A stretch of 64,000 nucleotides of DNA from Ceratodon purpureus (lineage: Eukaryota; Streptophyta; Bryopsida; Pseudoditrichales; Ditrichaceae). The stretch lies in contig CM026429.1 of NCBI GenBank assembly GCA_014871385.1, forward strand, positions 6,235,080 to 6,299,079. Direction: 5' to 3'. Position numbers and translations under genes: made by a program. Shown here in pieces: positions 13,208 through 55,559 of the stretch. How positions within the stretch are numbered: the stretch's first letter is position 1; the number at the start of each line of letters is the position of its first letter. Under the pieces are notes generated by a model, which saw only the letters and a program-made list of their open reading frames with translations, ran no database searches and was not told the DNA's origin.

Positions 13208-13240
13208 AGAAAAAAAATAAAAAATAAAAAATAAAAAATT

Positions 13241-13437: not shown

Positions 13438-14501
13438 AATTAAAAGAATTAAAAAAATTCAAATTTGTTGCCACCGTCTGCCTTCAGTAAATTGTTTTGC
13501 CCCTTGACATTTCACTATATCTAAGAGTCCCTGGACAGTTCAACTTCCCGGAGTTCCCAACAGTACTAATTCTGAAATATCTTTCTAAAAGATCTCAATG
13601 CCAAAATTCACCAAAAGTATAATGTTTCTTGATTAATGATTAATTCCAAGTAAAATGTTGCTTGATTAATTAGTAATTGTGCATTAGCTTTAGAACTGTC
13701 GTGTAAATCCTCAAGAGGCCAATTTCCACTCATACCTGGAATTTGATTTGCAAATAAACTTTTACTTTTACTTTTCCACTTTTACTTATTATTGGCAAAT
13801 TTTAAGTTCTAGAAAGTAAAAAGTCCCAGCTTTAGGGTTTAGAAAGTAAAAAGTCCCAGCTTTCTAATTTTCTTCGAATAGTTTCAAACATTTATTTTGT
13901 GCCTTAGCATGCTAATGTACATAAATTCTGCATCAACATCCTCTACGATTTATCAGAACTGTATTCAATATATACTTTCTCATAAGTCCATTATTACAAT
14001 TCATCCACGTTTAGATTAAACCTCCAAAATTCTACACATAGTAATTTCAAATTCAAGATAACATGAAGAACTATTGAATTCTCAACAGTATGAGCACTTC
14101 GAAACAAAAATGACAACTAGGTGATAAAGCCGATGATTGAAAAGAATGATCAGGAGGTGAATTCAAACCGTGCTTGCTTTTTCAATTGCAAGATTGCTTC
14201 AGAAACCAGCATGAAGTTCAAGCAAGACATCTACGTTCAAAGTAAAATGTGACCATGATATGTACCAAATCCGAGAATGGTGCTAAAATACTAAAGAGTC
14301 TCTGAAAACCCTACATCAGTCAGAGGTAAAGAAACACCCGAGGGCCAAGATCATAGCAAGTGTACCAAACACAAAACTACTGAAACACTGGTAGACTGTC
14401 CTAGCATACAATAGGTGTAGACAGTTACATAAAGAAAAATGATTGTTTGGTGCTTCATTTCTAGAGTCCCTGGCTTCATTCTACTGTCCACGTTGAGGAG
14501 A

Positions 14502-16874: not shown

Positions 16875-16919
16875 TCTGCTGCACAAATAGGTTTATCATC
16901 GAATTGCCATTCCCTCTTG

Positions 16920-29173: not shown

Positions 29174-29952
29174 TCACTTTAAATTTCAAGTCAAACATGA
29201 ATTTCACAACAACCTCCTACGCAGTAATTAATCTAAATAAATTGTTTTGCCCCTTAGAGATGTCACTAAATCCAAGAGTCCCTCGACAGTTCAACTTACC
29301 GGAGTTCCCAACAGTACTAATTCTAAAATATCTCTCTAAAAGATCTCAATGCCAAAATACTTTATGCTTCATCAGAATACTTGGGTAATCATTGTTGATG
29401 ATATATTGGATCAAAGGGGTGGATCAATGACCAGAAAAAACATAATAGACTGATTCAAGACTGATTAAGGTGGATGGAAACAAAGGCAGACTAATTCAAG
29501 GTGCTGGAAATAAAGGCAGACTGATTTAAAGGCGGTGGAAACAAAGGCTTACACCAAAGTATAATACTGTTCTATACAAGCCGTAAGAAAGGGGATGAAA
29601 GTCAACAGGCTACTCCCAGTACTATTCACCTAGTTGACAACGACTGCCCCACTAAGTCTACGGGGGTCATAGGACTGTCCCAAGCCGAGTCCATCTCGTT
29701 GGCGGCTGCGTTGTGCGCTTCCATCATCTAAATGTACCAGCCCCAATTTTTTAAGGTTCAAAACATGGCCTCTTTGTGGTACATCAACCATTCCCGCCAG
29801 ATTTAGTGTTGCTTTGCTCTGAACTGTGTCCACCATTGTTTCCACAGTTGTTTCAATCACCTGCTCTGCTTTAGACTTCTAGCTTGCTGCCGCTCCTTGT
29901 TGTCGATCTGGTTGCTGTAGCTTTGTTGTAATCGAGGTAAATAGTTTCCACC

Positions 29953-35226: not shown

Positions 35227-35295
35227 AGAAGTTGAATCACTTCTATGGCTCTCTTTATGTCAGTTCTTGTTGCTAAACGGCCGTAGAATTCGAAT

Positions 35296-35775
35296 ATGAC
35301 TCATGTAATGCAGATGAAGTTTGAGGACAGTGCAGCAACGAAGGAACCTGCCACAGACGAAATCGTATCTCTGGATGATCTTCATGGACCGTTTGATCCA
35401 CTCATAGATGTTGAAGCCGGGATTACCAACGTCTCCGAAGATGCGGCTACTTCGGTCCAGCCCGTGGAAGACATTGTGGAACATGAAGCGATTCATCCAT
35501 CCAACGACCACGTGGAGGACGGCAATATGAGATTGACGCCTGCTCCAGAAGCGTCGAGGACTCACGCCTATTCGAAGGTAGGAATTATCCCACGTGGAAC
35601 ATACCACAGGACAATGTTTAGTGGGACACATAGGCGTAGAGGTCCTAAACTTAGCAAGCCAGGCTGTAGGTCCTTACCCATACCCGACAATATCAATCGT
35701 GGAACTGAGAATTCCGCTGATGCAATAAGTGTAGACCGCAAAGACGGCCCTTGCAAGCGATATAAGAGGCTGTAA
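35296..35775 (+). CDS. HAYS1, small element-encoded protein (159 aa)
   Basis: Single-exon frame from ATG 35296. The N-terminal half is acidic and variable. The C-terminal half carries HAYSKVGIIPRGTYHR, followed by RRGPKLSK and a basic end (CKRYKRL). The same motif and position occur in the protein at 39044-39496 of the inner element (HAYSMVGKIPRGTYSR, RRGGGPLLKR). I recognise no family. Conservation of the motif in two diverged elements, next to a transposase in both, argues that it is a real gene with a job in the element's life cycle, for example a DNA-binding or transposase-helper protein. That role is inference. Confidence 0.65.
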   Translation: MTHVMQMKFEDSAATKEPATDEIVSLDDLHGPFDPLIDVEAGITNVSEDAATSVQPVEDIVEHEAIHPSNDHVEDGNMRLTPAPEASRTHAYSKVGIIPRGTYHRTMFSGTHRRRGPKLSKPGCRSLPIPDNINRGTENSADAISVDRKDGPCKRYKRL

Positions 35776-36379: not shown

Positions 36380-38047
36380 ATGCACGACTGTACCACTCCC
36401 ATCTTCTTCCAGGCTCTAAGGATGGCGTCTCTACGTGCACATGGTAGAGCAACGCCCTTCACAGCACCCTTAGGGGAGGACGGCACAGTTACCATTCCAA
36501 AGCAACTGCTTAGTCTTAGGTTCAACTTTAGAATTGGGTCAATGTACGTGGAGAGAGAGATTTATGATGATAGCGGAGAACTAAGTGAGACCATTTTGCA
36601 GACCAGGTCTAGAGATGAGGAGGGTTATTTTTGGACTTTGTCGAGCGGCACGTTTAAGGTTTATGGTTTGTCTCATTCTGACATGTCGATGTCAACAGTC
36701 ATTCTGACTCCTCCGTCCTCAACGTCAACAGTCCAAGTCCCAGCGTTAGTGAGAGTGAAAGTCGAGAATCCTGAGGTCCATGTCATTAGTGATTCTGACG
36801 ATGACATTGTTCCGGATATCAATATAGCTGATACAAAGGTCAACCCCTTTGTACGACGTACAAGTATTGGCTCCACTCGGTCTCTACCAATAGGCAGCTT
36901 AAGGCGATCTCCGTCAGTCTCCCCTGGTCGTCCCCCAGCTCATCCAAACACGAAGAAACGTCGTAGTATCCTCGATGCGATTAAAGCGACGGCAAAGCGC
37001 AAAGGGTCCCGGTCAGAGATTGTGTTGGTTGACTTAGACTCCCTAGAGCATGTGGAGGTTAAGTATCTCCCTCCGACATATAACGGTGACAAGATCTTTG
37101 AGCTGCCTCCGATTCCTGAAGGCGTTCCGACATCATTTAGCGGTGAACTGGATGGAATGGGAAAACAGTATGACGGACATGCTTGGTGTAAGACCATGAC
37201 CACGAACATTAGGAATGATTTCGGTCTGAAATTCCGGAAATCTCTGTGTACTGGGCATTTGCAATGTCCGAATCCTGCTTGTGATTTTGTTGACAGGAAT
37301 CCCGGGAAGGTGAATTCAACAGAGTGGGCTGGATTAACTCCTACACAGATTCCAGTAAGCGGGGCGCATCCTCCTTCGTCGACTCTGGTTTCCAAGCTGT
37401 GCCACACACCTCCTATTTGTTTAGCGTCTTGTGATGCTTGAATTTATCATGTGACATCGAGAGAGCCAGATTACACACGCGCTGCAATACACTTGGGGGT
37501 TCATGACCATCCAGTTTCCGATGGCACTTGCCAGGATACACTAGACCATATATATGAGTGTATCGGCGAGCAGGTCCTCCGTACTCCGAATGCCAAGAAT
37601 TCGGGGATTGTGATGGGCGCATCCAAGCTTTTCTTAGCCGACTACCTAATTCGAGCAACTCCAAGACAGAACCATCTCCGTGGTGTTTCGATGGAGGAGG
37701 CTATGGACAAGTTCGAGACGATGTCCGATGCCAATGTCAGGAACTTTGTTGCAGGTACGAAGAAGTTTCTTCGGCAAGACAACGGTCTCATCGACAACAT
37801 TATGCGATTGAAGGAACACAATAACTTCAAGTTTGTGCACGATAGTCGATTTCCAGGCCAAACTAAGGGGAAAGTCTTCATCTTCAAGATGTCCGTCGAT
37901 TTGCCGGGCAGTGGAACGGATTTGGTGAAGCGCATGCAACCTGGAGGAGACTTGCAAGATTCATGGATAATGTTCGACCACGTGAAGCGCGTGAAGAAGT
38001 GGAGCACCATGGCTTGCCACGTGTACGACAGCAAATACTGTAAGGTG
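36380..38047 (+). pseudogene. Outer MULE transposase, 5' part, interrupted by the inner element
   Basis: The frame starts at ATG 36380 or, better aligned with the sibling, 36422 (MASLRAHG). It matches the inner-element transposase end to end: an N-terminal beta-rich region, a Ser/Pro-rich linker, CPNPACDFV, a GxHDHP block and WIMFDHVKRVKKWSTMACHVYD. An in-frame TGA at 37439-37441 replaces a lysine codon of the sibling. At 38047 the frame runs into the 10-bp duplication and the inner element. The continuation is at 52864-54787. With four premature stops in total it cannot encode a transposase without correction. Confidence 0.85.
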
Positions 38048-38057
38048 ATGACCATTG
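38048..38057. repeat. Target-site duplication, left copy
   Basis: ATGACCATTG, identical to 52864-52873. In the host gene this codes for part of KVMTI. Confidence 0.9.
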
Positions 38058-38260
38058 GAGGGTAGCTTGTACGTGAGCGCAGAGCGGAGAGCGGAGAGCG
38101 GTGAGCGCAGATTTGGAGAGCGGAGAGCACAGAATGGGGGACAGAACCTTAAAATAGCACTTTTTTTACTAAAAATAAATCATAAAATTAGAAGATTCGA
38201 ATATTCTTGATTTATTTTGGGAAATTTACTAATTTTAGTAATTCAATTGACCCTATAACC
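38058..38260. repeat. Left terminal inverted repeat of the inner element
   Basis: GAGGGTAGCTTGTACGTGAG followed by repeated AGAGCGG and GAGAGCACAGAATGG, then, after A/T-rich DNA, a CCCTATAACCGTGG word near 38250. The right end (52738-52863) gives the same order on the opposite strand. Confidence 0.8.
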
Positions 38261-38773
38261 GTGGACTAATTACAGTATTTTCATTGGATTTGTAGTTCGT
38301 TTTCTCTTTTCTTGGTGATTAATTTTTTAACGTGCACCAATTACTATGCTCCAGCTCCTTCTTACTAGTTCAGGCAGACTGTAATTCCCCTTATCTCCTT
38401 AAATTTATATGCAAATTACTACTTAAAATGTATTGGTATTGAACCTCTGAACAGGGATCAAGTAACATTTAATTTCGTAACATTTTTTTAACATTGGTAG
38501 AATTCATCCACCATAGTCTACACGCCTTTCTCCTTTTTTTTATTTTCTTTTAATTTTTTTGAAATTTGTCTTGTATTTTTTATAAAATTTTCTTTATTCT
38601 ATCTATCTTGTTAGAGGGGTCAAAAGCCTCCTTTCATTTAATTCTCTCCTTCATTTTATTTTCACAATCATTTTATTTTCACATTCAATTTGTTAATCTT
38701 CTTCATATTATTTTCAACCTTCATTTTAAATATTGCTATTCTTTTCTTTAATCTTTTTAATTTCAATTTATAT

Positions 38774-38815
<42 letters not shown>

Positions 38816-39043
38816 CCTTCTTTAATTTAAAAAAAAAAATTTAAATGCTAAATGACCTCTGCTAAACCTTCATCTTTTTCCATTCGGTTTAGGAGGATGA
38901 CAACTTCTAAATGAATGAATAGCCGATTTTCAAGGGCGCCAAGCATCTTCTTCGCGGATATTTAAGATAAGAGTAGGGAATGTCTCTGCCTCTTTTGTGT
39001 TGGTGTTATGTGAAGCTCTTTTCCGTAGTGCGGGACAGCAGCT
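38261..39043. other. Non-coding left region of the inner element
   Basis: T-rich DNA with a run of almost 50 T near 38768-38815. A TATTTAAG word about 85 bp before the HAYS2 ATG may serve as its TATA box. No coding frame is seen. Confidence 0.5.
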
Positions 39044-39496
39044 ATGGAAGACGTCAGAGATATTGTTGTTTCACTTGCTGACGATGTTTGTCCATTTCAA
39101 CCATATGTTGAGGTGGAGGACGAAGAAGAGGTGATGGCCAACAGCCAAGGGCGTCCTTCGACAACGGATGTTGACGTCCAACCGGATGTAAGAGCTGACC
39201 CTCCACGTTCAGAAAATTCGGATGAAATCATAGTGCTAGAGAAGGACGCAGATGTGCCTTTGCAACCACATGCATACTCGATGGTTGGAAAGATCCCAAG
39301 GGGAACCTATTCCAGGGAATCAGTTAATCGGAGGCGGGGAGGTGGGCCATTGCTGAAACGATCCTACCAAGGACACGCTCCAAGTGTGGGAACGAAAGTG
39401 AATGCGAATGTAGTTTGTCCTGTAGTACAGTCAGCGGCTGGCAGTCCTGCTGATAGTGTAGTGGGCAACCCTAAACGTGTTAGGTTCGAAGATTGA
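39044..39496 (+). CDS. HAYS2, small element-encoded protein (150 aa)
   Basis: Single-exon frame from ATG 39044. The N-terminal half is acidic (VEVEDEEEV, SDEIIVLEKD). The motif HAYSMVGKIPRGTYSR, then RRGGGPLLKR, follows at about residues 83-110, and the end is basic (KRVRFED). It is homologous to HAYS1 only around this motif. It lies just inside the left end of the inner element and converges on the transposase gene, with about 250 bp between their stops. Function unknown. A short conserved basic motif after an acidic half suggests a binding protein, but I see no known fold. Confidence 0.65.
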   Translation: MEDVRDIVVSLADDVCPFQPYVEVEDEEEVMANSQGRPSTTDVDVQPDVRADPPRSENSDEIIVLEKDADVPLQPHAYSMVGKIPRGTYSRESVNRRRGGGPLLKRSYQGHAPSVGTKVNANVVCPVVQSAAGSPADSVVGNPKRVRFED

Positions 39497-39750
39497 GACA
39501 TCTAATAACAAGTATATGTTTGCTGTAATAAAAGATACATGTCAGGGGATACGAAGTATATAGTGCACTTGTTCAAGATAGATTGTATTCAAATAGAATG
39601 CAATTAATGTGAACGACAAAGCCCTTAATATAATGAAAAAGTCAATACAGCTTCTATATTGCTGACTTAGTACATGGGATATTACTAAAATCATTCACTA
39701 CCTGACAAATGGCCATTGTGGAAATGGCACTTCTAAAGTAGGAGGGCTAC

Positions 39751-42700
39751 CTACTTCTTCGCCAAGGGGTGACGCAAGATTCCACTCTCTAGGAGAAGCT
39801 TGACCTCGTTGAAGCTAAAGGTAGGCGCATGGATGAAAAGCTCGGCTTCGGGATCACGGTTGCAGACCTTCAAGAGTATGTAGTATAGGTGCTTACAATA
39901 CGTGAACAGAGTCTTGCCACGGAACGTAGTCATCGTCTTCTTGAATGCTGGGCAAGTGCAACCAGGGTAAGAACTGATGGTAATCTGGTACCGCGTGATG
40001 TGTGGAGCGACGCCCGAATCCAGCCCAATGATGCAACCGTGGCCCGGCTCAGGTATCATGGTGACGGAACGGAGGCGCGCTTTAAGAGACTCGGAGGAGC
40101 CCATGGAGAGTCGCTGCGCTTGATTGGGACGAGTGGCAGTGCGCTTCACCATCTTGCCGTCTCTCTTGCCTGGGTAGCGGTCAGCGTCTGCAGGGACTGG
40201 CACGGAGCTGAGATTTGCAGGGGGCGGGGCAAAGGAGAAGAGGCGTCTTGGGGAGACCGGCTTCTTGGGCGGAAGTTGAAAACCTGCTGCTTTGAGGGCA
40301 AGAATCTCAGTAAGTTTTAGGTTAGTACCTAGTTTCACTGGCCAGACCTCTGGAATGGAGGGGAATTCCTGGTCCTTCGAGTAGTGTGCTACCCACTTGC
40401 GCTTAGAGCCTTTCACGCAACGCTCGATATCGTCGGAGCAGAAGAAGAACTCAGTCTTCTCCACTAGGTTCCTGCGATAGTTAGTCCAGAGCCCAGTGTA
40501 GGTCGGTGCAGCTGTGCAATGGGGCCCCCTGACGATTCTCTCAGTGCACTTCTTCTTCGTTTCAGCTCTTTGGGCCCAGCAGCACTTCGCAGAAAGTTTG
40601 TGAAGTCTCGAAATGTGCCACTCCTTCACGTCCACCTTGGTTTCTTCAACCGCGTTGACATGGCGAATGCCGCCCTTGTTCACAGGTGAAGGTAAAGGGG
40701 AATCAACTTCCTGGGCAGGAGGTTGGGTACATTGTACCTCGGTGTCGTGTTCGGAGTCGTCTTCCACAATGACCGGCATCTGCATAGGGCGAGCCCTGAC
40801 GGCACGTCTTGGGCCTCTTGGGCGTGAGAAGTTGGTCTTATCCGGGCGATGAGACTCTTCGTCAGCTCCGATAAGGACGTCGGCTTTTCGCTTCTGTGAA
40901 CCAAAGACTTCCGCTCCTGGCATGATAGGCTGACGGGTGCAGAACTCATCCGCGCCTGGCATATCGAGCATGGGCTTGTCGAGCAGTGTAGGATTTCCCC
41001 ATTTCTTCGCGTTGCGTTCCGCCATCCGAAGCCTGAGTTCCTTCTTGGATGGTCCTGTTCCGCCGACGTCACCTTTGAGGAACTGGTAGTAGTTGACAAC
41101 CTGAAGAAAAGCCCGAACGAAATCGTCCACGGTAGCAACGTAGAGGTCGTTTCCATTGTTTCCTGAAGCTTGGAGCCACTTGTTGTGAACTGTTTCGGCG
41201 AGGTTACAAGTGGGCATCTCTGTGAGTTCTTCTTTCGTGAATTTCTGCAGATTTGACAGTAGGTGACGTTAGATTCACGGATTAGACTTCTGTAGGTTAG
41301 GGCTAGGAAACCAGTATCAAAAACATCAAAACAGAGTGCAGAGATAATACGTCGGTCATGAATCCCCCCCACTGGCGGAAGCGGTGGTGCCAGAATGACA
41401 GTCACTGATCGAGTTTGATGAGCCCGCTCTCGCCAACGACCCCGGTGGATGCCCACCATGCTCGCAACGCGTGGTACAGAGTTTCCGCCTCTGCCATGCT
41501 GGTCGCATTCTTGTACTGAGTGCACATCTTCTTGTGCTGTTCCCAGAGTTCTTCGGGGAAGTGCTTCTACGTATACGCCACCATGTTCTGAGTCCAGTGG
41601 AACAAGCACGACCGCTCCCGGTCCTCCATTGGGTCCTCTTTGTTGCCATTGCCGTAAAGGATTCGCACTGCATTCCAATTCGCCTGTGCGTTATCCGCCA
41701 TGAACCCCTTGAAGTTCGGCGCTGCAACGCCATTGATCTCCATGACCAGGTTCAGGTTTTTCCAGAAGACGAGCTGGGCGTCCGTGTCCTCGGACTGCAT
41801 GTCGCAAGTGGCGATTGTCATCACGCGGCAGTAGGTGGCGTCGTACACATGGCACGCCATTGTCGACCAATCTTTGACGCGTTTGACATGGTCGAACATG
41901 ATCCATGCGTTCTCCAAATCGCCACCAGCTTGCATACGGCTGACCAAGTCGACACCGCTGCCCGGCCCGACCTCCGACATCTTGAAGACAAAGACTTTGT
42001 CACGCATGGATCCCTGACCAGGAAACCTATTCTCCTGGACATACGCCCAGAGACTGTTACCACGGAGCTTGGTGATACCGTCCATGATTCCGTACCTTAT
42101 GAATTTTTTGAAGGTGGCGACTTTGTTGCGGATGTTGGGCGACGCCATGTCTTTGCAACGATCCAAAACAGGAACCAGCTCCTCCATCGTCAGCTTCCTC
42201 GGTGGTGCATCCTCGGGCTGTAGAAGGTAGCTCCCGATGAGGAGTTTGCTCGCCTCCAAGACAACGGCGCTCTTTGTTGCTTTGTTGTTCATCTCTACCT
42301 GCTCTTCTATTAAGCTACTAATCTCTGCTTTAGAGTCTCTGTAGTCTCCAACTTTCACTGGATGATCATGTGTTCCTATGTGAATACAAGCTCTAGTCTG
42401 ATTCGGTTTGCCCACAACGTAATAAATCTTAGCCTCGCATGTAGCTACACATGATGGAGGTTCTTTACATACCTTGCACAATAGCGTGGAGTCAGATGGA
42501 GGAGGCTGGTCCATGACAAAAGCTTGCAGGGTACAGCCTTCGAACTCAGTCTCGTTGACCTCGAAGATCTTGGGAACACGCTTGAGGAAGTCACACTCCT
42601 GGTTGCTGCACCGAAGCCATCCGACGCAGGTGGAACTTCGAAAAGAGAGTCCGAAGTCGTTTTTGATGTTTGTTGTGATGGTCTTGGTCCACAAGTGTCC

Positions 42701-43429
42701 GTCGTATCTTTTGTCCATTCCCTGCATAGACTTCGCGGCGAGCTTAGAGGATCCTGCAGCAGCTGGGGGCAACTCAAAAAGAACCGGACCATCAAACTTC
42801 GCAGGCAAGTACTCTACTCTCTCGTGTCTAATAGTGGAATAGTCTATCTTCTTCAAAATGTTTTTGGACCCACGCGTCTTAGCAATCTCTTTAAGGAGCG
42901 GAACAATGCTAACTGTGACCTGGGACAATGGAGGAGAGACATTGGAAGGAGGAGCATCTGCGTGGACCTTAGGCACCAACTTGACGGGACTGACTTCGTC
43001 ATCAGAAGAGAGAGATATGACGGTCGGAGGAGGTTTCTCTACATCTGAAGTCTCGGTACCCGGCTCGACTTTGACTTTGACATCACGAGGTAAGGGAGTC
43101 TGAATTGTGCAAGTAGAAGAGCGACGGGGGGTGAGGATCTCAGTGGATGCAGCCATCAGAGAATCAGTAAGACCGTAGACTCTATAGGATCCAGGGAGGA
43201 GTCTCCACTGCAACATGTTGTTCTCATCTCTCACTGAAGGTTGCCCGAGGGTGTGGGTAACCTCGGCAGTAACGTCATCAAAGATCTCCTCCTCTATACT
43301 GATGGAATCCTCACGGAAATGGAATCTGAGACTGAGGCGAAGAGAGGACACCGTAGCTAGACCATCGTCATCTACGCGAAACCTAAGGGGGATGCCCATG
43401 CCTTGGGCGTACAGACAGACCATCCCCAT
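39751..43429 (-). CDS. SWIM-type MULE transposase of the inner element (two in-frame stops)
   Basis: Exon 1 runs 43429-41351 and exon 2 41244-39751, about 1190 codons. The start ATG at 43429 (MGMVCLYAQG) aligns with MASLRAHG of the outer copy. The catalytic core shows IMFDHVKRVKDWSTMACHVYD, then NFKGFMADNAQANW, then RSCLFHWTQ. The last has the C-x2-H motif typical of MULE transposases. A SWIM zinc finger (CTCPAF, then YCKHLYY) lies near the C-terminus at about 39.97-39.87 kb. In-frame TAG at 41569-41567 and TGA at 41404-41402 sit where the homologous frame continues, so this copy is probably broken although otherwise well kept. The gene is divergent from the ParB/methyltransferase-like gene and convergent with HAYS2. 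Confidence 0.85.
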
Positions 43430-44157
43430 ATTCGCAGGCAACTCAGATATACTAGAGGAAGAACGAAGAAAATTGAGTGTACCAGCCAAGCGCTATCTTG
43501 AGAGCAAAGTGAGAGGAATGATGCATCGTTGATGATCATTTTATTCAAGGTGGAATGTCCATGTCAACAGTTGGGGAATGATTCTGTCTGTTACGTAACG
43601 AATGTATGCAACAAGAGAGACGGCGCTAACTGATTAGAATGTGCTTTTTGCAGGCCCATAAATATGTGGTGAGATTTTCAGAATATTGCTTTTAAGTGTT
43701 TAAATCGTGGAGCAGATTCTATTTTTTATGGAGTGTGATTGGATTAAATAGAGCCGTCTTTTCCTTCTGCATTTAAAACAATAAATATATAGAATTTGAA
43801 TTAATCATATTCATGCATTAGTTATATATGTATAGGACTAATGCAAGCATATGATTTATTCAAATTCTATATTTTATGCAGTGTTAGGGTTCCTCAATTT
43901 TCATAATAGATTTCTGGACAGACAGACTGTGAGTGAGATTAGAGTGAGCCGTCACTTGAATCCATATTTAATACAAGTATTCCTGTGCTTAATTAAAATC
44001 TTTTAATATTTTGTGGGCTTGGTTTATTCTCTTCAAAAATAGATTGATCTCATCAGCTTTAATTCAAAATACAATTTATTTATAGTTTTCATTAAATCAA
44101 GTAGGTTTAGAGTAAGGTAAGTATCTAGGGCTGAGTCAGGGGGTTTGAAGGTTTGGG
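43430..44157. promoter_or_regulatory. Divergent promoter region of the inner element
   Basis: This 728-bp AT-rich space separates the starts of the transposase (-) and the ParB/methyltransferase-like gene (+), so it should hold both promoters. An imperfect inverted repeat is visible near 43780-43880: ATATAGAATTTGAATTAATC and the inverse GATTTATTCAAATTCTATAT. I cannot assign a definite TATA box. Confidence 0.45.
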
Positions 44158-47100
44158 ATGTATAAGTTAGAGGGAAGTCAGGAGGAGAGCTATATTGTGA
44201 GGAGAGTTCACTTGTTAGTTAGACACATGAAGGAGAGTGGAGGGTCAGCTCCCTCCACTTATGTCACTCCTAGACCTAGAAGAAAACCAGGTCGTACAGA
44301 TTTTACGAATAGGAGAGCGAGGAAGAGGAGAGAGTCACGCAAGAAGGTAGTTTTGAAAGGTGACCATTTGAGTGCACCACTGAAAAGGAGAGGAGCAGGT
44401 CTGCCATTAGCCTTGAAATTTACTAGCATTCGCAAAGTCATTCTAGACTCTATAGTGGAGGACAAGGAAGAGTATTTAGAGAACACCGTAGGCGGTAATC
44501 ACGAGAAGGAGGTAGATTTAAGTGGAGAAACACTTGAGGCCATGACGGAAGAATTAGTTTTTAATTGTAGTCAAAGGGTTGAGTCACCGCAGCCTTCTAT
44601 TAGCTATAATGAAATTTCGACAGGGGAGTTGGGATCTCAAACAAATGTATATGTTAACTCCGGAACGGTAAGCATTTTTACACCGTTTTGACTGCTGTGC
44701 ATTGTTTAAATTAATTCAACATTCTAAAGAGTAGACGCATTTCTATTGATAATGAATCAATCTAAAGTACCGTAGCATCAGCTTAAACTCACATACGGTA
44801 GCACTCACGACTGTAAATGTTTAAAATAAATGTGTAGAGTAACCAAAGGATAAGGGTAGAGGGAGAGTGGAATTTTGACTCACCTTCTGAAGAGGGTCGT
44901 GAACTCGACCATTTGGCTGCCATTGCGAGGAGAGCGAGAATCGAGATATTGGGAGCAGGAGAAGGAGGGTTTGCAATGGCTGCGAGGGAAGAGCAGGTGA
45001 GGGCGGGGCTTCTGAGAGCAGGTGAGGAGCAGGCGGGGGTCGGTGCAGAGGCCGCGGAGGAGGCTGCTGTCGAGATGGCGGTGGAGGAGCTGGGAGGAGC
45101 GGAGGAGCAGCTCGCGCCGCCTGGGTTTCCTGAGGAGCAGGAGAGAACTGATGAGGACGACGAGGAGGGAGAACGGGAAAGTGGAGATGAGGTACGATTT
45201 TTTGGTGTCATGCGGTTTGATTGCTTGGTGTACGGATCTTGTCGTACGGGTAGATGGCGATGTGGCAAATTATGATTATGAGATGATTATTCTAAGTGCT
45301 GGGTGTTCAGAATTAGGGGGATTGGAACCTCTTTGCGGATTTACATGATTTCAGGTTTCGGGTTTTGGGTTTTTGGTTTCGGGTTTTGGGTTTCGGGTTT
45401 TGGTTTCGGGTGTTGTGTTTTCGAGTTTTCGAGTTCTGGGTTTACATGGAATGCGAGTCAAGGTTGCTGCTTGGGATTTGGGTTTTTGAGATGGGGATTG
45501 GATTGGGTGCGGGATGGGGATCAGATGCGTAGTGGGTTAGGGAGAGGGACAGGGAGAGGCCGCGGGGAGATGGACAGGGAGAGAGTTAGGAAGAGGGACA
45601 GGGAGAGGCCGCGGGAGATGGACAGGGAGAGAGTTAGGGAGAGGGACAGGGAGAGGCCGCGGGAGATGGACAGGGAGAGAGTTAGGGAGAGGGACAGGGA
45701 GAGGCCGCGGGAGATGGACATGGAGAGGGTTAGGGAGAGGGACAGGGAGAGGCCGCGGGAGATGGACATGGAGAGGGTTAGGGAGAGGGACAGGGAGAGG
45801 CCAGCGGGGAGATGGACAGGGAGAGAGTTAGGGAGAGGGACAGGGAGAGGCCGCGGGAGATGGACATGGAGAGGGTTAGGGAGAGGGACAGGGAGAGGCC
45901 AGCGGGGAGATGGACAGGGGAGAGAGTAAGGGAGAGGGACAGGGAGAGAGTTAGGGAGAGAACAGTAGGTGGTCGCGAGGGAGATGGGCTCTTCCTCGTT
46001 TTCATGTTTTTTTTTTTTTTAAATTTAAATTAAATGCCGACCCAGCCTACTGTCGTTACAGACAGTAGGCGGGACAGATTTTTATTTTCATTATGTTACC
46101 GAGGCTCCCTCCTTTGAGGGGGAGCATTGCTTCACATTTTTGTTTAATGTTGTTGTGAGCATTGCTAAGCTTTGCGGCTCTTCCTCATTTTCATGTTTTT
46201 ATTTTTTTCAAAATTTTAAATTAAATGCCGACCCAGCCTACTGTCGTTACAGACAGTAGGCGGGACAGATTTTTATTTTCATTATGTTACCGAGGCTCCC
46301 TCCTTTGAGGGGGAGCATTGCTTCACATTTTTGTTTAATATTGTTGTGAGCATTGCTAAGCTTTGCGGCTCTTCCTCATTTTTATGTTCTGTTTTTTTGA
46401 AATATTTTAAATTAATTGCCGTCTCTGTCTACTATTTTAAATTAAATGCCCATCATAAACGTGCCTTGTGACTTAGGAATCCTCTGAGGACAACATGGAG
46501 AGCCAAGGTCTATATCCGACTCCAGCAGAAACCGAGGTACTTTTTTACTGTCTACAGAAAATCTAGGATTCTTTTGATCTTAATAGTGTGTCCTCGACCT
46601 CTACGTTGTTGTTTCTCTCATTTTTGGATCTGCAAATTAACCTTAAACTTTTTAATGTACTCTAGGTATATTCAGATGCTCCTGAGATGTCCGCTACATC
46701 CCCCATTTCAGTCATCAATGTTTCCGATCTCTCGGATTCATTCGATCAGCCTTATTGTACCTGTGATGTAGCCAACCCTGTAGTTGGAGATAGTGGACCT
46801 TTCGAGGTCCACTCTCCCCAATACATGCCTACTTCTCCCGTGTACATGTCTACCTCCCCAGTGTATGAGCCTACCTCCCCGGGGTACATGCCCACCTCCC
46901 CTCCACAGGGCTCACCGCCGATGTCTCCACCCTCGCCTTCCTCGCCTATTAGAGTAAGGAGGCCAGCACATGTGGTCTTCGCGCTTCCGGCAATTCTGCC
47001 GTGCCCGGTTCAGCAGACCAGGCGGTTTTGGAGGAGGCGCCGTCACTGGAACTGTAGACAGTCCAAGGAGTACTATAGTCGAGCATCACGTAGATAGTTC

Positions 47101-50100
47101 CTTCCATCGCAGATGACGATTGACTTGTTACAAAAGAAATGACAGTATGAAGATATATTGTTACTTTCTTTTACATACTTGTCTTCTTTGCATGACTTCC
47201 TTTGATTGTGATTCCTCTCTTAATTCGAACACCTCTTCGCAGGTTACGCTAACACAAGATGTGTTGGCAAAACCATCTTGCCCGATCGACTTGAAGACTG
47301 CTATGGAAGGGGAATTGCAGCATCGAATAACATACAAGTTGGACTCCAACGCCGTCATCAACAACTGCAGGATCAAACCGTCGCACAAGTCTCGAATGCT
47401 GGTGCCCTTATGCAGGATGATTCCAATGGCCAAGGTTAGACCAGTGGGTGAAATGGGGGTACAACACTTGGAGCGGGAGTTTGTTAAGGGATATAGAGAT
47501 GGGGACCGCGTCATGTACATCTCCATGTACAATACCGAAGAGGAGACGAAGAATGTGACGGCGGAGATCATGGCCACTTGGAGCCCTTTATGGAGGGCCG
47601 CAAGTGATCGCTTTGATGATGAGGTCTCTGGGGACGAGGAGTTGATGCAGTTCAAACACAAGATGTTTTATGTCTGGGAGGGTAATCATCGCCTCTCCGC
47701 TTGGCTCCGGCACATCAACAAGCATCATGTGGACGACCCATCCTGGCACATCTCTGTGCATTGCATTGTACTTGACCCTCGTGGCCATGTGGGTATTCTC
47801 CTGCACGCTATGCACGACATCAACTGGTACGTTCAAAAACTTGAGTATTTGTTATCCACTTGGAGTCATTTTCTATAATATTTCTCCCACTTACTTACTA
47901 ATTTGATATTCAGGTCGACCGAGAATGACCACGTGAAGAGTAATCTCCCAGCAAAATTGTTTCGAATCCGCTCATTCGGAATGATGAAGCTGGAGGAGTT
48001 CAAGGACCTCCTGAACCCTCAAGAATACGATGCTTGTTTGAAAAACAAGCCCCCGAACCCGTCATGGTTTCCCCTGACTACTCGAGTTTTCATCGCGTTT
48101 CTCTACCGAGTAAGTTTGACCTCCACTCCGTCTTCGCTCGTTCTATCTTCTCTCATACTTTGAAAGTTTAATTTCGTTCTTTTCTGAATTCTCTAAAAAT
48201 TGGTTATCCTTCTACAGCGGGAAATTGCTGTGGCCTCGGATGAAGCAGCTAATGCCTACATGGAGAAGACACCGGCGGATGAACAGACTGCGTCTGCGGT
48301 TTGGGAAATCATGAATGACGCGTCTGAGAAAATGGTGGAATCCATAAAGAATAAGGACTTTACCAAGTACTTGGCAATTGCAAATCCCAAAAACGGAGAC
48401 GACTTCCTGAATGAGGTAACAACTTCATTCAATATCATTTAAGAATTTGGAATTGTTACAAAGTTCAGAATACTATTTTCTAATACTTCTCTGCTCCTGG
48501 CAGATCAATCGGCATTACAGTCTAAACTCCAAACCTGAAATGTCCCTTGATAAGCTCCAGAAGATCTGTCCGGCGGCCGTTGAGCCCAAATACAAGGTTC
48601 GGTGGCTGCGGTGGTGGAACTCATCTCTGAGTTCCAGACTATCTTACAGATTTCCACCGCCAGGATTCAAGGATACTGATTTTGACCCTTGGTTGAACAG
48701 GGCTTCATTCTGGGCTGGGGTATTGTTTCGAAAAATGCCTTCCCAATTACAACATGCTTTCTGAATTCTTTTCTCATTGGTACTTATTTCAATTCTGTAT
48801 TTCAGTTGGAGGAGGCCGTCGTCAACGAGGTCGAGGACATATTCAAGTCGGAGAACCTCGATATCGACTGGAGGGCATTTCCTGATGTCCAACAGCCGGG
48901 CGATTACGTCGAGAGTTCACGTATTATGTTGTGGGACAAGGCCTTCCCTTCGTTCATTGGAAAGAGAGCTAAGAAGCCCTTTGAGAAGAAGTCCGACTTC
49001 GCTAAATTCCCTGGAACCGCTGATGTTGTCAAGCGGGTTATTTACCGGTATATTGCGTTACTTTTTCGCATTTGCGTATTCTAATTCGCTAGAGCTTTCT
49101 ATGCTACTAACCTTCTAAATCTCTTCTCTTAGGTACTTCAAGCGAGAGCTTGTTTTGAAGGGGGTCATCACAGTCCAGCAGCTACCCAACTACTTCCGTT
49201 CTTGGACGCAGACAACCTCGGACCAGTGTATCTATTCTCCCCAGCAGCTGCAAAGGTACAAAGCTCCTCACTTGCTTGAGGGATGCTGGTACCTTGATTG
49301 CTCTCGTGGTTTCACGATTGATTCAGAGGTCGAAGTCAAGACTCTACACGATGGGGGTGCGGTGGTGGTCGAGGACACAGAGGATGGCGCAGACGATTTT
49401 GGAGGCCATGAAGATCAATCCTCTGCTCCTCCACCAAAGAGAGGGAGAGGAAGGCGACTGAAATCTCTGGGTTCTCAGTCAGAGGCATCACAGCAAACTG
49501 GTGCGGAGTCTTCCGCGCCAGCTGACAAGGCACCAGATCCGTCTCCGTGTGTTGTCGTTACCAACCCTTCTCCAGCTTCTTCGCCGGCTCCTTCATCGAT
49601 CAGTGCTTCGGAGATCACCAGAGGTCTCCTTCAGCAGAGGAAGGCCAAACTATATCCTCAAACAACTTCTTCCGTTGGCGCTTCGATTTCCACACATGTT
49701 TCCGTCTTCAACTCATCTGTGGATTCCCTGTTGCGGCGAAATAGGAGACAGGAGAGAAAAGGTGGCGACCCGGATTGGATCAAGACTCAAGACTTCATTC
49801 GCAAGGTTTGTTCCTATATTTTGGCATTTAATGGATTCTGGCACCTCTACTCGCTATGTAGTTACTAACTCTCCTTTCTTGTTTCCTCAAGTTTGGAGCA
49901 GGCCGCGAAAACGAAGTTCCGGACCGGTGCAAACAAGAGGACCATCTGGGAGTCGACTTGATCATTGCCGACATCCCTGAGAATCTTCCCGTCCCTTCCG
50001 TTTCCGTTCCCCCCACGAGTATTCCGCCTTGGAACTCTCGCTACAAGGATTATTTGTACGACATCTTCCATTTTGCAGATGAATTCATGCAGAAAGATGG

Positions 50101-51208
50101 TGCCATCTGCCTCATCTACAACACTGATCAGAAGCTGGCTAAGGATATCGAGGAAGAAGCTGCTAATGGTGGATACGTGCTGTTCAAGGACTGGTGGGGT
50201 GTCAATGTCCTCGGCCTCACTTCTCCCACGAACCCCGAGAACTTGGTAATTTTCCTGAACATGCCCTTCTCTTCGCTTACTGATAACCCTTCCGCTTCAT
50301 TTTACTCACTAGTTTTGCTTGACTGCAGACTATGCGATTCTGGATTCGCGTCTACGTTCGTAGTGGCAGTACCTTCTCCTTCCAGACGAAGAAGGAAGAC
50401 CTGATACATGGGCTCCTCAACATTACCGAGAGTGATGCCATTTTCAACTTGACCGATGTGGATTCGCAGCTCATGAATGGGGAGGTGCCGTGGAGAGGCC
50501 CAAGAGAGAAATCCATCGAGATGATGCAGGGCATACTTGAGGAGCTGTCGAAGCCCGGCGACATAGTTGTTGATTGGAATGCTGGGACAGGTAACTATTC
50601 ATGCATATCTTTGCTGAATTATTCTTCTCGTTTTTTCCACAGTTTCTCATTTCTTTGTATCTCTCCGAGTTTCAGGAGCCTCCATCAAGGCTGCCCAGGC
50701 TATTGGTCGCCACATTCTCGCCTTTGAGGAGGACGAAGCCATATTCAACGCCCTTCTCAAACCATCCGCCATGGGTCCTCCTAAACATCCAAGGCCGGCA
50801 GCAGCAGGCGAAGCGCCTCCAAAGAGAGCAAGACCTGACAAGTGGTGTAAGTCTTCTATTCTTTGTTTATATTATTCAATCATTACTTCTCTTTGTAGCT
50901 CTACGTACTCAATGTAACCACAGTCCGTTCTCTATTGCAGAGTAGTTTCAACAACACCGCCACGTGGGCCAACATCACTGTCCACTCCATCGTGGCGTCT
51001 TCATTCCAGCCCGATTCAGCCTTTTATACTTCCGGACTACGCAGAGGACGTAGCACAGGCGTTTCAATCTGGAGCCCTTACGTATGTTCCTAGTCGGCCA
51101 ACTACTTTTGATCCCAGGGCCCTCCTATTTGTCGATGACGAGGCGGTAGAAGGAGATTCAGAGTCATCTAGTTCTGAGAGTGAAAGTAGCGATTTTAGCA
51201 TGTTGTGA
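44158..51208 (+). CDS. ParB-like / CTD-heptad / beta-class DNA methyltransferase-like fusion protein, intact copy (P2)
   Basis: Fourteen exons join without a frame break: 44158-44667, 44838-45191, 46477-46536, 46666-46953, 47243-47826, 47914-48109, 48218-48415, 48504-48719, 48806-49047, 49133-49805, 49892-50245, 50329-50590, 50676-50846 and 50943-51208. Total 4374 nt, 1457 aa. Parts in order: a basic region; a Glu-rich region; four heptads like the Pol II CTD (about 361-388); a ParB-like domain (VPLCRMIPM near 456, WEGNHRLSAW near 550); a long middle region; a Ser/Pro-rich linker; and a methyltransferase fold. The fold has DLIIADIPEN near 1131 at the DPPY position and VVDWNAGTGASIKAAQAIGR near 1305 as the SAM-binding loop. 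The tail is acidic. DPPY before FxGxG is the beta-class order. The aromatic residue of DPPY is lost, so catalysis is doubtful. Confidence 0.8.
45353..46000. repeat. 48-bp G/A-rich minisatellite in intron 2 of P2
   Basis: After a short run of TTTCGGG/TTTTGGG words (45353-45440), about eight to nine units of 48 bp follow. Each contains GTTAGGGAGAGGGACAGGGA, GGCCGCGGGAGATGGAC or a close variant. The array lies wholly in the intron 45192-46476. Confidence 0.8.
46016..46385. repeat. Tandem ~184-bp duplication with an internal hairpin in intron 2 of P2
   Basis: Two near-identical units both contain CCTACTGTC, a six-base loop and GACAGTAGG, followed by GAGGCTCCCTCCTTTGAGGG (itself a hairpin) and GTTGTGAGCATTGCTAAGC. 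A third, shortened start appears at 46385-46450. Confidence 0.75.
46822..46905 (+). other. Four RNA-polymerase-II-CTD-like heptads in P2
   Basis: The codons read YMPTSPV YMSTSPV, then YEPTSPG YMPTSPP, in exon 46666-46953. The consensus Y-x-P-T-S-P-x matches the CTD heptad YSPTSPS at Y1, P3, T4, S5 and P6. This is followed by SPPMSPPSPSSP. The frame is fixed by phase-0 splicing on both sides. Confidence 0.8.
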
Positions 51209-51721
51209 GTTTGAAGGAGGCTTCGGTCTATTGTTGTTTTCATTGGATTTGATTTGATTTAATTGGAGTTCATTGGGTAATCCTTCGTCTACTCTACTAC
51301 CCTAAACCTAAACTTGTTATAATTCTCATATCAAATTTGTCTCCGTGTTTGTAAAGGATGAAATGTCACAACTGTAATGCTCAAAATATAATATGAAGAA
51401 TGAAATGTTACCAAAGAAAGGCTCAAATATAATATTGTGCTGTTATTTATATTTTACTCATTCAAAATCCCACATTTGCATAGCCAGGTTACCTATTCTT
51501 GACTTGGTGTACATCTTGGTTTCTGCTACTCCATTATTGTACACGAACTCTGAAATATTCCACGAACTTCTAAGACCATTTCTTTTAGTTGGTTTTTCTT
51601 TTCTTATTTCTAGAATCGTCTATATTATATAAAACCATCATGCTAGAATTCTCGCATCTAGATCCAATGAATGACCAAATCTTAAGGATTGTATTCGAAC
51701 ACCCCACTAGACTTCACAGTA
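51209..51721. other. Intergenic, no gene seen
   Basis: AT-rich DNA between the end of P2 and the small minus-strand ORF. No repeat or frame stands out. Confidence 0.5.
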
Positions 51722-52093
51722 CTAATCCTTCGAAGGATATACAGTCCAACTCTTGTCCATATCAAACCAGCAAGTTTCGCCATCCGATATGATCACTTCG
51801 GGCAGCTCAACAACTAGATTCTCATTGATGTTCGATAGCAAGGGATACGGGATTAGGGACAACTCCATAATACGGAGAAGCTCATTGGTACAAAGCACTG
51901 TCCAACGCCATTCACCTTCACCAACATGGAGGCTTCCGATGTGCCTAAACAATGGCAGGTCCATGCCTCGTTCCCTGGCGCGCTCCACCTCCAGCAGCCA
52001 CCGCCGCAGCTCCTCATAACTCGCCGGTGCCTTTGGGGGCAAACCTACAGCCGCTCTCGTCCTCCTGGATCTCGCATTACACACCTTCGGCAT
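51722..52093 (-). CDS. Hypothetical small protein near the right end of the inner element (123 aa)
   Basis: Frame from ATG 52093 to the stop at 51722, starting MPKVCNARSRRTR and containing YEELRRWLLEVERARERG and a tail with CWFDMDKSW. The balance of residues and the length free of stops make it plausible as an exon or a small gene. I recognise no family and no counterpart elsewhere in the window; the matching part of the outer element lies outside it. It could also be the 3' exon of a gene starting closer to the right end. Confidence 0.35.
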   Translation of the reverse strand: MPKVCNARSRRTRAAVGLPPKAPASYEELRRWLLEVERARERGMDLPLFRHIGSLHVGEGEWRWTVLCTNELLRIMELSLIPYPLLSNINENLVVELPEVIISDGETCWFDMDKSWTVYPSKD

Positions 52094-52737
52094 CGCGCAA
52101 CACACTGAATTCTTGTAGTCTTAAAAGGTTCCACATAAGCCTACAGATTGACCCCCCTGAACTCCATCGCTACCTTCGCATACAACAGAGAATGCCAAGG
52201 ACTGTGTCACTATCCTAATACGCCACCTAGAAACAACCTCAAGAAACCAAGAGTGACCTCCTTCTGTGGAACCCAGCTTACCAAGTGCTGTTTTATGATG
52301 AAAATCTCTTACTTGTATCACTCAAATGAAGATGCTTTGCTGCCTACGAAGAGAGAGTAATCTTCGATGAAGACAAGGACTCTAACAAGGTATATCTTGG
52401 TTTGAGCAGTTCAGATATTATACACGAATTTTGAAATATTCCAGGAAGTTTTCAAACCTTGCCTCCTTTATGTTCTGTGAAAGTTGTTTCTTTCCTTGTG
52501 CATTTACATTAACCTATGAAAGAATTAATTGTTTGATCTAGAACTTAACGCCTGATCATTATATCTTGCCTAAATCCATGAGAAATCTAACAAAATATAT
52601 GCATGACGTCATCATGACATCAGCCCTAATTTGTATCTTAGAGAACAAACGTAATAAATTCTTACCAGAGATAATCCTGATTTCCACGGTAATATACTCT
52701 TTTCCTAAAAAAAGTGTCAAAATCAAGCCTTAATTTA

Positions 52738-52863
52738 GTAATTTTCCACGGTTATAGGGTCTACTTTGCTTTTGAAAATTTTGCTAATTGTCAATTCTGT
52801 GCTCTCCATTCTGTGCTCTCCGCTCTCCGCTCTACGCTCTCCGCTCACATACGAACTTTCCCC
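52738..52863. repeat. Right terminal inverted repeat of the inner element
   Basis: CCACGGTTATAGGGTC, then CTCTCCATTCTGTGCTCTCC, then GCTCTCCGCTCACATACGAA, then CTTTCCCC at the end. This is the inverse of the left end at 38058-38260 with scattered differences. Confidence 0.8.
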
Positions 52864-52873
52864 ATGACCATTG
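52864..52873. repeat. Target-site duplication, right copy
   Basis: ATGACCATTG, identical to 38048-38057. The host frame resumes here (MTI, then ANCDMQSED). Confidence 0.9.
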
Positions 52874-54787
52874 CAAACTGTGACATGCAGTCAGAGGATG
52901 CGACAGCGCAAGAACTGTTCTGGGAGCAGCTGAATGGAGTAATGGTGGATAACGGACATCTGAAACCAAACTTCAAGGGCTTCATGGCGGACAGCGCTAG
53001 GGCAAATTGGCACGCAGTACGCAAGGTATACGGGAATGGTAATATCGACGACAAAATGGAAGACAGAGAGCGGACGTGTTTGTTTCATTGGACGAAATGT
53101 CTGGAGAGGGTCACCTTAGCTCATTTCAAGACAGACTGCCAGGACCAGATGAGAGCTCTTTGTAAACAGTGGAAGGATGCAAAGACTCAAGAGGAGGCAG
53201 AGGACATGTACAACGTCATACGGGGATGGTGACAATCTGGAGGTTGTGTCCCATGTGAGGGCAGCAAACGAGCGCTAAATGACTGGATGGTATTCTGGCA
53301 TTACAGATACAGGCAGTGGGGTGGATCTATGCAACTTGTAAGTGTCTTCCAAACTACTTAATTGATGAGTACCATTAGAGCTTCTAATTGATATCATCTC
53401 ACATTTACACTTCTACTTGCCTATGCAGAACCTATCTCTGGAAGAGAGAGCGGACATGCCGTCGTGCAACCTAGCAGAGACTATACACAACAAGTGGCTT
53501 CAACAGTCCGGCAACACAGGCGACTGCCTCTACGCTGCAACTGTGGACGACATGATGCGTGCGTTCATGCAGATCACTCAGTACAGAATGTATCTGAAGG
53601 GAGGGAGGGGAGGCAAAGGACCAGACAAGGCAAAGCTCCGCCTCCGTCAAGCACAGCGGAGCTTAGACCCGGAAATGATAGCTGAGGCAATGAAGGCGTA
53701 TCCCGGAGCTGCAGACGTTTTAACGAAGGAGAAGGGACTCGAGGGAGCTGAAATCTTTGGATCTATGAAGAGAAAGCTTGATCACCCTCCTGGTTCAGCC
53801 CATGACTCTCACTGCTCCGATACGGTCAATTATTCAATTCCTGCGATGGGGACACGGTCAACAAGGGCCCGGATTCACGAGGCTCTTTCGGATCCAACGT
53901 GTGGTGTACAGCACACCACGTCCGTGCAGGAGTCAGAGTGCGATCCATCCAAGTGGCACATTGCCCGCCTTTCAAACCGGTCTGGATGAAAATGTCAAGC
54001 ACTTCAGGCACAGACTCGTAAGAAGTGCGACGCTAAGATTTCGAAGGGATCTCGGGGTACAGCGGAGCCTACATATTCTGGATAGAAGAAGGACTTCCAC
54101 ACTAGACGCTTGACTGCAGCGGAGTTTTGGTTCTGCTCTGATGATATCAACCGATGCGTGAAGGGAGGTCCTAAGTCATTTATTGTGGATTGGCCGGAAA
54201 TTCCTGTGGTTTGGCCAGTCAAAATTGGAACAAATCTCACTCGACAGGAGATACTCTCCTTGGAAGAAGCGGGTTTCCAACTGCAACAGCGTGGCGCTCT
54301 ATCACCACGCCGCCAATTCCAAGCAGCTTGTAACTGGCCTCTTCCGAGATCCCATTTCAAGGCACCAGCGGATCCCAATGCACACCCAACGCTTCGAGGT
54401 GGGCATTCCATTCGCAAGAACTCTGATGCCCCAACTGTGGAGCACCGTAACAAGTGGGAAAGCGCCGCTCTCATGGACCATTGCGGTATTACGGGGGTAA
54501 CGACTATTCCGTATCCTGGATATGGTTGTGTTGTTACCCTTAACACGGGAAATGACAAGCTCTACCGCGTCACCATTGGCTGTTTTCCGGAATGCACTTG
54601 TCCAGATTTCATCAAGATGCTTTCAGAGACTCTAGGAAAAAACAAGCAATGGAAATACTGCAAACATATGTATTATGTTCTTCGATACATGTGCAAGATG
54701 GACCCAAAAGAACACTCCTTCATGCACGCTCCGAGTTACAGCTTCGACGAGGTTATGGAAATCCTCGAACGAATGGGTGCTTTTTGA
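52864..54787 (+). pseudogene. Outer MULE transposase, 3' part
   Basis: Continuation of 36380-38047. Exon 52864-53338 holds NFKGFMADSARANW and RTCLFHWTK (C-x2-H). A GTAAGT donor follows, and exon 53428-54787 begins NLSLEERADMPSCNLAE. The intron sits at the same place as in the inner copy. The SWIM finger is CTCPDF, then YCKHMYY, at about 54595-54680. In-frame stops are TGA 53230-53232 (the sibling alignment expects Trp), TGA 53987-53989 and TAG 54083-54085. Similarity to the inner copy continues on both sides of each stop, so these are substitutions and not frame changes. Confidence 0.85.
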
Positions 54788-55049
54788 AGAACTATTCAGT
54801 TTATAACGTACAAGTAGTCCAGCAGTGGACAGTAGGTAATCTATATCAGCAGTGTTTTGTTCTGGATTGGTTTTGTCTTGATTTGAACTGTGGAAAATAA
54901 AGATAGTTTCTTTCTATGCCATTATATACAATCAAAAAGGTGAATTCTTTTGCACAGCAAAATAGAAATCCTTCAACCCTATGACAAACAACTCTATTTT
55001 TCTGGTGAGAAAACTCAGCAACGTATCATTAAGTTCCCACAATGTGTAT

Positions 55050-55245
55050 CCTCTAGAGATGTATCTCGGATCCGAGGGTCCCCTGGAGGCAGAGTGAAAT
55101 GGACTCTCGGATCTGAGATACATCTTAAGCATTGCAAAACCACCCTTAAAAAAAAAGACAAATTGGATACACAGGAGGTGACTTTCGGATCCGAGGGTCT
55201 CTTTGTGGCAGAGCCAAGGGGACTCTCGGATCCGAGAGCCACCTC
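55050..55245. repeat. Two paired GGATCC palindromes near the right end of the outer element
   Basis: Cores at 55068, 55109 (GGATCT), 55187 and 55228. The outer arms of each pair are inverse to each other: GATGTATCTC with GAGATACATC, and CAGGAGGTG with CACCTCCTG. Each pair can therefore fold into one longer hairpin with two small palindromes in its stem. Confidence 0.75.
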
Positions 55246-55559
55246 CTGCGCATCCATTTTTTTTTTTTTTTTTAAATTCGATATTAAAATAATTCAGGCA
55301 ATGTCGTAAAAATCTGGAAAAAAATCATTGTAAACTGATCCGCATTTCAGTAAATTCAGTGTATATTCGATGAATTTTTTTTAAATTCTATATTCAGCTT
55401 TTTTGACAAAAATATCCTCGATCCCACGGAATTCCACGGTGATAGGTCCTTTACTAATTTTAGTAATTTATCTCCAATTTCGTCAAAAATTCCGAAAAAT
55501 TTCAAAATTAGGTCAAAAAACGGAGCGTTTTTCAAAAAAAAAAAAAAAAAAAAAAAAAC

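Follow-up and report, generated by a model that had tools for sequence, protein, structure and literature searches.

A moss DNA transposon family that carries a gene for a ParB-like and DNA-methyltransferase-like fusion protein, a possible counterpart of VANC built from other parts

Transposons of the VANDAL group, Mutator-like elements of Arabidopsis, combine a transposase gene with a second, variable and intron-bearing gene for the anti-silencing protein VANC. In VANDAL21, the transposase is the more conserved of the two, and the elements contain variable tandem repeats that often hold VANC target motifs, including in the VANC intron (PMC5735166). In fungi, DNA transposons of diverse groups (KDZ, hAT, EnSpm and others) carry TET/JBP dioxygenases, which are presumed to serve the evasion of silencing (PMC12730594). 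A 2025 survey of the ParB fold records methyltransferase fusions in phages and sulfiredoxin as the commonest eukaryotic member (PMC12704722). In a survey of Mutator-like elements (MULEs), the word “methyltransferase” is absent from the main text, and no such gene appears in the portion of the table examined (PMC6446971). Analyzed here is a 64,000-nucleotide stretch of the genome of the moss Ceratodon purpureus (GenBank assembly GCA_014871385.1, contig CM026429.1, positions 6,235,080 to 6,299,079, forward strand; hereafter, the window), in which a 14.8-kb DNA transposon at positions 38058–52863 carries a gene for a protein with both a ParB-like and a DNA-methyltransferase-like domain. An earlier reading of the DNA letters (the sequence-only reading) knew of no description of a eukaryotic MULE with this fusion, and our literature search, in which subscription papers were largely out of reach, agrees with it: no paper was found that pairs Mutator-like elements with ParB, nor one that joins the terms Physcomitri-, ParB and transpos-.

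The architecture of the moss element resembles that of VANDALs, with a transposase gene, a more variable intron-bearing second gene and copy-variable tandem repeats in a probable intron of the latter, and suggests by analogy that a ParB-like protein fused to a probably dead methyltransferase might here take the part of VANC. The protein components differ: VANC proteins contain DUF1985 and DUF287 (PMC5735166), for which the Pfam search found no match in the fusion protein. The comparison with the fungal TET/JBP transposons is looser: those are likewise cut-and-paste elements with a gene of the DNA-modification type, but the enzyme family and the transposase are others, and the moss gene encodes a methyltransferase relative with a broken catalytic motif. 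The ends differ as well: VANDALs are not known to have terminal inverted repeats, and the moss element has clear ones.

The decamer ATGACCATTG is present twice on the plus strand, at 38048–38057 and 52864–52873, and brackets the element as an exact 10-bp target site duplication. Directly inside it lie terminal inverted repeats composed of GAGCGGA-like 7-mers, at 38058–38121 (plus strand) and 52800–52863 (minus strand); the left end was found in all 10 of the other copies described below and the right end in five, those for which it was sought within the DNA retrieved. The two ends align as an inverted repeat over 53 columns with a local score of 69, compared with a median of 18 and a 95% point of 24 in 300 random placements, the maximum of which, 410, was a single outlier. 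Both features had been claimed in the sequence-only reading and are borne out. The duplication falls inside the frame of an older transposase gene, 40–71% identical to that of the element, whose 5′ part (36422–38059, plus strand) continues beyond the element at 52864–53097 and 53408–54769 and whose frames hold stops; the halves are continuous across the element, so this is a true nested insertion. From the left, the element contains a small open reading frame (ORF) of about 150 amino acids, recognized by eye (39044–39496, plus strand; a look-alike with the motif HAYS.VG.IPRGTY, also seen by eye, lies outside the element at 35287–35775), the two-frame transposase gene on the minus strand, and then, in divergent orientation, the 14-exon fusion gene on the plus strand.

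The genome that was searched comprises 362.5 Mb in 151 contigs. The transposase exon occurs in at least 69 places at 98–100% identity (69 scored of 2675 candidates) and its 89-amino-acid core in at least 150 places at 100% identity (150 of 1832 candidates scored), whereas the ParB-like exon occurs in at least 150 places, the best 150 of 1881 candidates all being at least 79% identical. The family is large and recently active. Ten further copies, namely transposase matches 2–6 and 8–12 of the 69, one of them extended by 4 kb, all align from the first base of the element, and all contain the fusion gene through the ParB-like and methyltransferase exons (in copy L009, as far as exon 12). Five copies have both ends in the retrieved DNA; they are 13.7–16.1 kb long and are flanked by perfect, mutually different 10-bp duplications (CGGCGGTGTC, CATGAACATC, ACTATTTAGT, AGTGAAGAAA and ATAAAAATTA). 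Conversely, among 10 places selected by the ParB-like exon, a transposase accompanies nine (seven in the upstream DNA, two by coordinates), with none seen at C13:6444842; a fixed-distance look upstream had shown it at three places and the wider look at seven. Genome-wide, a listed transposase lies within 20 kb of 41 of the 150 listed ParB-like places, in 40 cases divergently, compared with a mean of 0.8 and a maximum of 5 in 500 random sets; the figure of 41 is a lower bound, since lists of best-scoring places were compared, and the random control used a guessed extent for C11. That all 10 transposase-selected copies have the gene, and nine of 10 ParB-selected places the transposase, indicates that the gene is part of the mobile unit, and this DNA transposon family carries it repeatedly. 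Co-occurrence of the two genes within bordered elements, which the sequence-only reading had proposed to look for, is therefore observed, and the fusion gene is not found mostly as a single-copy host gene. The same reading had claimed a second, diverged element in the window, which holds for its genes only: a diverged fusion gene is present at 668–4799 on the minus strand (38% identical in the ParB part, 25–46% in other stretches), as is a diverged transposase, but the two are divergent, lie about 31 kb apart, and no borders uniting them were found.

The model of the fusion gene comprises 14 exons with GT-AG borders and matching phases and encodes 1438 amino acids without an internal stop. On the plus strand, exons 1 and 2 occupy 44158–44667 and 44895–45191, exons 3 and 4 occupy 46477–46536 and 46666–46953, exon 5 with the ParB-like domain occupies 47243–47826, exons 6–10 (47914–48109, 48218–48415, 48504–48719, 48806–49047 and 49133–49805) encode a middle region without a Pfam match above the cut-off, and exons 11–14 (49892–50245, 50329–50590, 50676–50846 and 50943–51208) encode the methyltransferase-like domain and an acidic tail. 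Of the 90 instances of exons 4–12 in the 10 copies, 87 were placed with GT-AG borders and in the correct phase, 84 precisely where projected, at protein identities of 60–100%; the exceptions are exon 5 of L021 and of L025 and exon 8 of L023, for which every placement met a stop or a frameshift. Exon 13 was placed in nine copies and exon 14 in eight, the misses (L009, L019) being at the edge of the DNA examined. The sequence-only claim of a 14-exon gene thus stands for most of its length, but the 5′ part of the model is uncertain, because the first ATG of exon 1 is not conserved and exon 3, of 20 amino acids, was found in none of the 10 copies, although so short a query is easily overlooked. 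The probable start is a later in-frame ATG at 44227, present in the eight of 10 copies whose frames could be read there. Exon 4 encodes YMPTSPV-type heptads resembling those of the RNA polymerase II carboxy-terminal domain, two to four per copy in all 11 elements; the window protein has four, compared with a mean of 0.008 in shuffled sequences. A search of a large protein set with the 1053-amino-acid spliced core gave no match (7998 candidates scored), probably because the relatives there are exon-sized frames.

The C-terminal part of the protein is, by significant homology, a relative of the beta-class N6/N4 DNA methyltransferases. PF01555 was matched in four of four sequences (best E 8.9e-10), CcrM was matched over profile positions 18–228, nearly the whole domain (E 1.4e-4), and a search of phage records gave 475 at E up to 10 (best E 7e-7); of the 40 listed, 35 are annotated, 34 of them as methylase or methyltransferase. 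In the ParB-methyltransferase of Wolbachia phage WO, too, a beta-class DNA methyltransferase stands behind a GxHR-type domain, an order of motifs established by eye, and the methyltransferase parts of the two proteins align in hhalign with E 9.8e-6 over 56 columns. The phage protein, however, has DPPY and FSGSG motifs and a 405-residue intronless frame, whereas the transposon protein, 1438 residues long in the model, has DIPE and contains additional regions at the N terminus and in the middle. The consensus of the catalytic motif IV is (D/N/S)PP(Y/F/W). All 13 sequences of the moss gene and its relatives have D[IV]P[EK] at this place, and none has DPPY: the 11 family members share DIPE, the diverged fusion gene of the window has DVPK, and the contig L047, introduced below, has DVPE. 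Motif I, which binds S-adenosylmethionine (SAM), reads DWNAGTG in the window copy; its F is lost, as is its first G in the diverged copies. Methyl transfer is accordingly unlikely, and the domain is probably inactive, that is, not a writer of N6-methyladenine (6mA) or N4-methylcytosine (4mC). The N6/N4 methyltransferase fold claimed in the sequence-only reading is thus supported as an ancestry, with the catalytic motif altered throughout. An AlphaFold model of the methyltransferase part of the second gene, built from three sequences and lacking the last exon, was unusable (mean pLDDT, the predicted local distance difference test, 37); a Foldseek search with it placed SAM methyltransferases, including M1.HpyAVI, near the top beside unrelated chains, none at E <= 0.001, and is given little weight.

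The assignment of the exon 5 domain to ParB is at the level of motifs, without significant homology. A GNHR-type box forms the active pocket in the ParB superfamily. In an alignment of 66 sequences (the query and 65 of 120 listed relatives), the N and H of the box are invariant, G and R are present in at least 90%, and the surrounding VW[DE]GNHR..AW is conserved; exon 5 also contains VPLCRM...VRP. Of 1459 candidates in a large protein set, 148 matched an alignment of the ParB-like exon at E <= 1, which makes this a broad family. The ParBc profile was matched by none of the 66 sequences at E <= 10, and five of them gave a weak match to DUF1015 (best E 0.058). No ParB was returned by a search of the PDB with the domain or among the 15 phage records at E <= 10, and viral contigs gave no match. 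In hhalign comparisons with seven phage ParB domains the correct box was aligned, with scores of 16.6–16.7, just below the shuffled 95% points of 16.8–17.0; an AlphaFold model from an alignment of two sequences was unusable (mean pLDDT 35). The GNHR box noted in the sequence-only reading is thus conserved, while the ParB homology suggested by it is not reached in Pfam, PDB, phage or hhalign comparisons. Among prokaryote genomes, a single 4.7-kb contig (L047, CADCWO010000058.1, of a “Synechococcales” metagenome bin) holds a relative, with introns, of the entire ParB-like/methyltransferase gene and is likely a eukaryote contamination.

The transposase is encoded in two reading frames on the minus strand, 43492–41567 and 41268–39751, with DDE, C-x2-H and SWIM-like motifs. 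Read by eye (41570–43492 and 39754–41268), these frames contain D-A-T-Y, a second D, C-x2-H, NLAETVHN with the E, and a CxC...CxH SWIM-like finger, a set reminiscent of the MULE/MuDR superfamily. The target site duplication of 10 bp in six of six elements with both ends seen falls within the 8–11 bp given for MULEs (PMC6446971), and terminal inverted repeats, another MULE character, are present. However, none of 31 transposase sequences matched PF10551, the MULE transposase domain, at E <= 1, and the Pfam SWIM profile had no match in the sequences scanned. A whole-genome search listed 93 places of Pfam-recognized MULEs (best 150 of 384 candidates scored), and the transposase of the window is absent among them. 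Aligned by hhalign to these MULEs of the same genome, it matches their second D and their C-x2-H position for position, but the score of 14.6 is not significant, the 95% point of column shuffles under the same settings being 16.4; other settings or lengths, run without shuffles, gave 17.9–19.1. The MULE label given in the sequence-only reading is therefore retained at the level of motifs and duplication size, not as one reached by significant sequence homology.

The two genes of the element differ in their divergence. Relative to the window copy, the transposase exon of the 10 copies shows synonymous divergence (dS) of 0.058–0.094 and nonsynonymous divergence (dN) of 0.004–0.005. Between versions of the fusion gene, exons 5–9 show dN of 0.13–0.21, dS of 0.89–2.1 (a mean that leaves out saturated exons) and dN/dS of 0.08–0.18 in six pairs, and exons 11–14 show dS from the window copy of 0.04–0.16 in eight copies and 0.27–0.86 in two. 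Low dS in the transposase together with high dS and low dN/dS in exons 5–9 indicates that old, selected versions of the ParB half have been joined to one recent transposase. The nearest version also changes by exon block, which points to recombination: L011 is nearest to L013 in exons 5–9 and to the window copy in exons 10–13 (three others compared). The ParB half is thus old, diverse, under purifying selection and exchanged as a module, and the transposase is nearly invariant.

In all 11 elements, the stretch that separates exon 2 from the next placed exon contains a tandem array of up to 69 units, and its unit follows the version of the gene: 117 bp in six copies (two of them also with an 81-bp array), 171 bp in two, 224 and 202 bp in two, and 48 and 191 bp in the window copy. 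There, a 48-bp array occupies 45536–45948 (plus strand, element 7479–7891) between exons 2 and 3 and is followed at 45987–46421 (plus strand) by 2.3 units of a 191-bp repeat, each with an inverted repeat of 13-bp arms and one mismatch, as good as which none of 60 shuffles was. Among 14 array units, inverted repeats beat all 60 shuffles in four (the 191-bp unit of the window, the 202-bp unit and the 117-bp units of L015 and L017). The arrays of L019 and L025 have abundant stops in every frame. In the L009/L010 copy, 69 units of the 117-bp repeat (8 kb, element 7727–15787) stand between exons 2 and 4, so that the arrays are capable of strong expansion.

It is tentatively proposed that this is a cut-and-paste transposon with a sequence-specific anti-silencing or transcription factor of its own, the product of the second gene, similar to VANC but built from other parts. 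The ParB-like domain, which might be switched by a nucleotide as ParB is, and the inactive methyltransferase fold would bind the array inside their own gene, the YMPTSPV heptads and the acidic tail would recruit the transcription machinery or fend off repressive methylation, and the divergent transposase gene a few kilobases away would thereby stay on. DNA binding, the array as target and anti-silencing are what we infer here; module swapping and version-specific arrays make the anti-silencing idea, already raised in the sequence-only reading, more specific and testable. More doubtful, though conceivable, is the bolder form in which the system is an independently invented, self-recognizing one, a phage-type ParB-methyltransferase having been turned into a dead DNA-binding factor that reads palindrome-bearing arrays in its own gene, with the recognition module swapped and one transposase kept. 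Several observations weigh against the anti-silencing proposal. The homology to ParB is not significant, the heptads are few in number, and the 10 copies were picked by transposase similarity. Exon 9 is less diverged (dS 0.39–0.46) in six copies. The inverted repeats were equaled by 0.03–0.15 of shuffles in five of the 14 units and are unremarkable (0.27–0.50) in five units of 171, 81 and 48 bp. Arrays are fully open in a plus frame in four of eight copies with 117- or 171-bp units (repeats of 39 and 57 amino acids) and so are possibly coding there. The match between unit and version may reflect mere physical linkage, and other tandem repeats (17 bp, near element 531–969) likewise vary among copies.

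Rather unlikely, yet to be taken seriously, is that the protein is a transposition accessory factor that binds element DNA, for example the 7-bp end repeats, and is required for excision or integration with no epigenetic role. The gene is always with the transposase in a mobile unit in the copies examined and is under purifying selection; besides, nicking of DNA is reported for the ParB domain of the ParB-methylase from Bacillus cereus (PMC5512222), and mudrB is apparently required for integration (PMC6446971). A reader of constant ends is, however, expected to be constant itself, and the ParB half is diverse in a family whose ends and transposase hardly vary. A further, improbable view, that of a nucleoside-triphosphate-regulated nuclease or nickase of the ParB/Srx DNase kind acting in replication or transposition, draws on the conserved GNHR box and on reports of ParB-superfamily domains as DNases and nucleotidases (PMC5512222), but presupposes a ParB membership that is motif-level.

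Slightly less probable still is an active DNA methyltransferase that places 6mA or 4mC on element DNA to mask or label it. Such an enzyme would be in line with the significant beta-class homology and with the frequency of ParB-methyltransferase fusions in phages (PMC12704722), but was rejected given the altered motifs IV and I described above. Capture of gene fragments is common in plant MULEs (PMC6446971), and the gene might accordingly be a passenger host gene, captured in the manner of Pack-MULEs and without function for the transposon; this we regard as hardly credible and have rejected, as a dN/dS of 0.08–0.18 between old versions of a long, many-exon gene contradicts neutrality. Diverged relatives of both genes in the same window also speak against a passenger, as do the best 150 of 1881 ParB-like places, all close relatives within a multi-copy family, a list that leaves room for a distant single-copy host relative.

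Elsewhere in the window, three look-alike coding stretches, recognized by eye at 14865–16892 (minus strand), 24372–26403 and 29941–31578 (both plus strand), have a common N-terminal block GIP..L..RL...AP.LLGR and a C-terminal RING-like cluster CPxC...CGC.FHP.C...CP.C; two of the three were scanned and had no Pfam match above the cut-off, and they probably represent another multi-copy gene. At 7907–11469 (plus strand), a coiled-coil-like ORF precedes one that has the motifs CIYCNQE and HICTLHALTRM, the two being perhaps the genes of another transposon; the frames 7907–9238 and 9726–10877 gave no Pfam match above the cut-off. Repeats at 3158–3506, 4797–5970 and 54932–55324 read T-F/L-G/R-S-E-S/G in frame, by eye, like one recurring short unit.

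If the proposed anti-silencing role is correct, the moss family would have solved the problem addressed by VANC a second time and by unrelated means, in a way not found described in the literature searched. Since the family is abundant and its transposases are nearly identical, a single genome holds matching and mismatching versions of the gene side by side, and the idea can be tested there directly. It would also mean that a eukaryotic mobile element has taken over the phage-type ParB-methyltransferase plan and uses it without catalysis.

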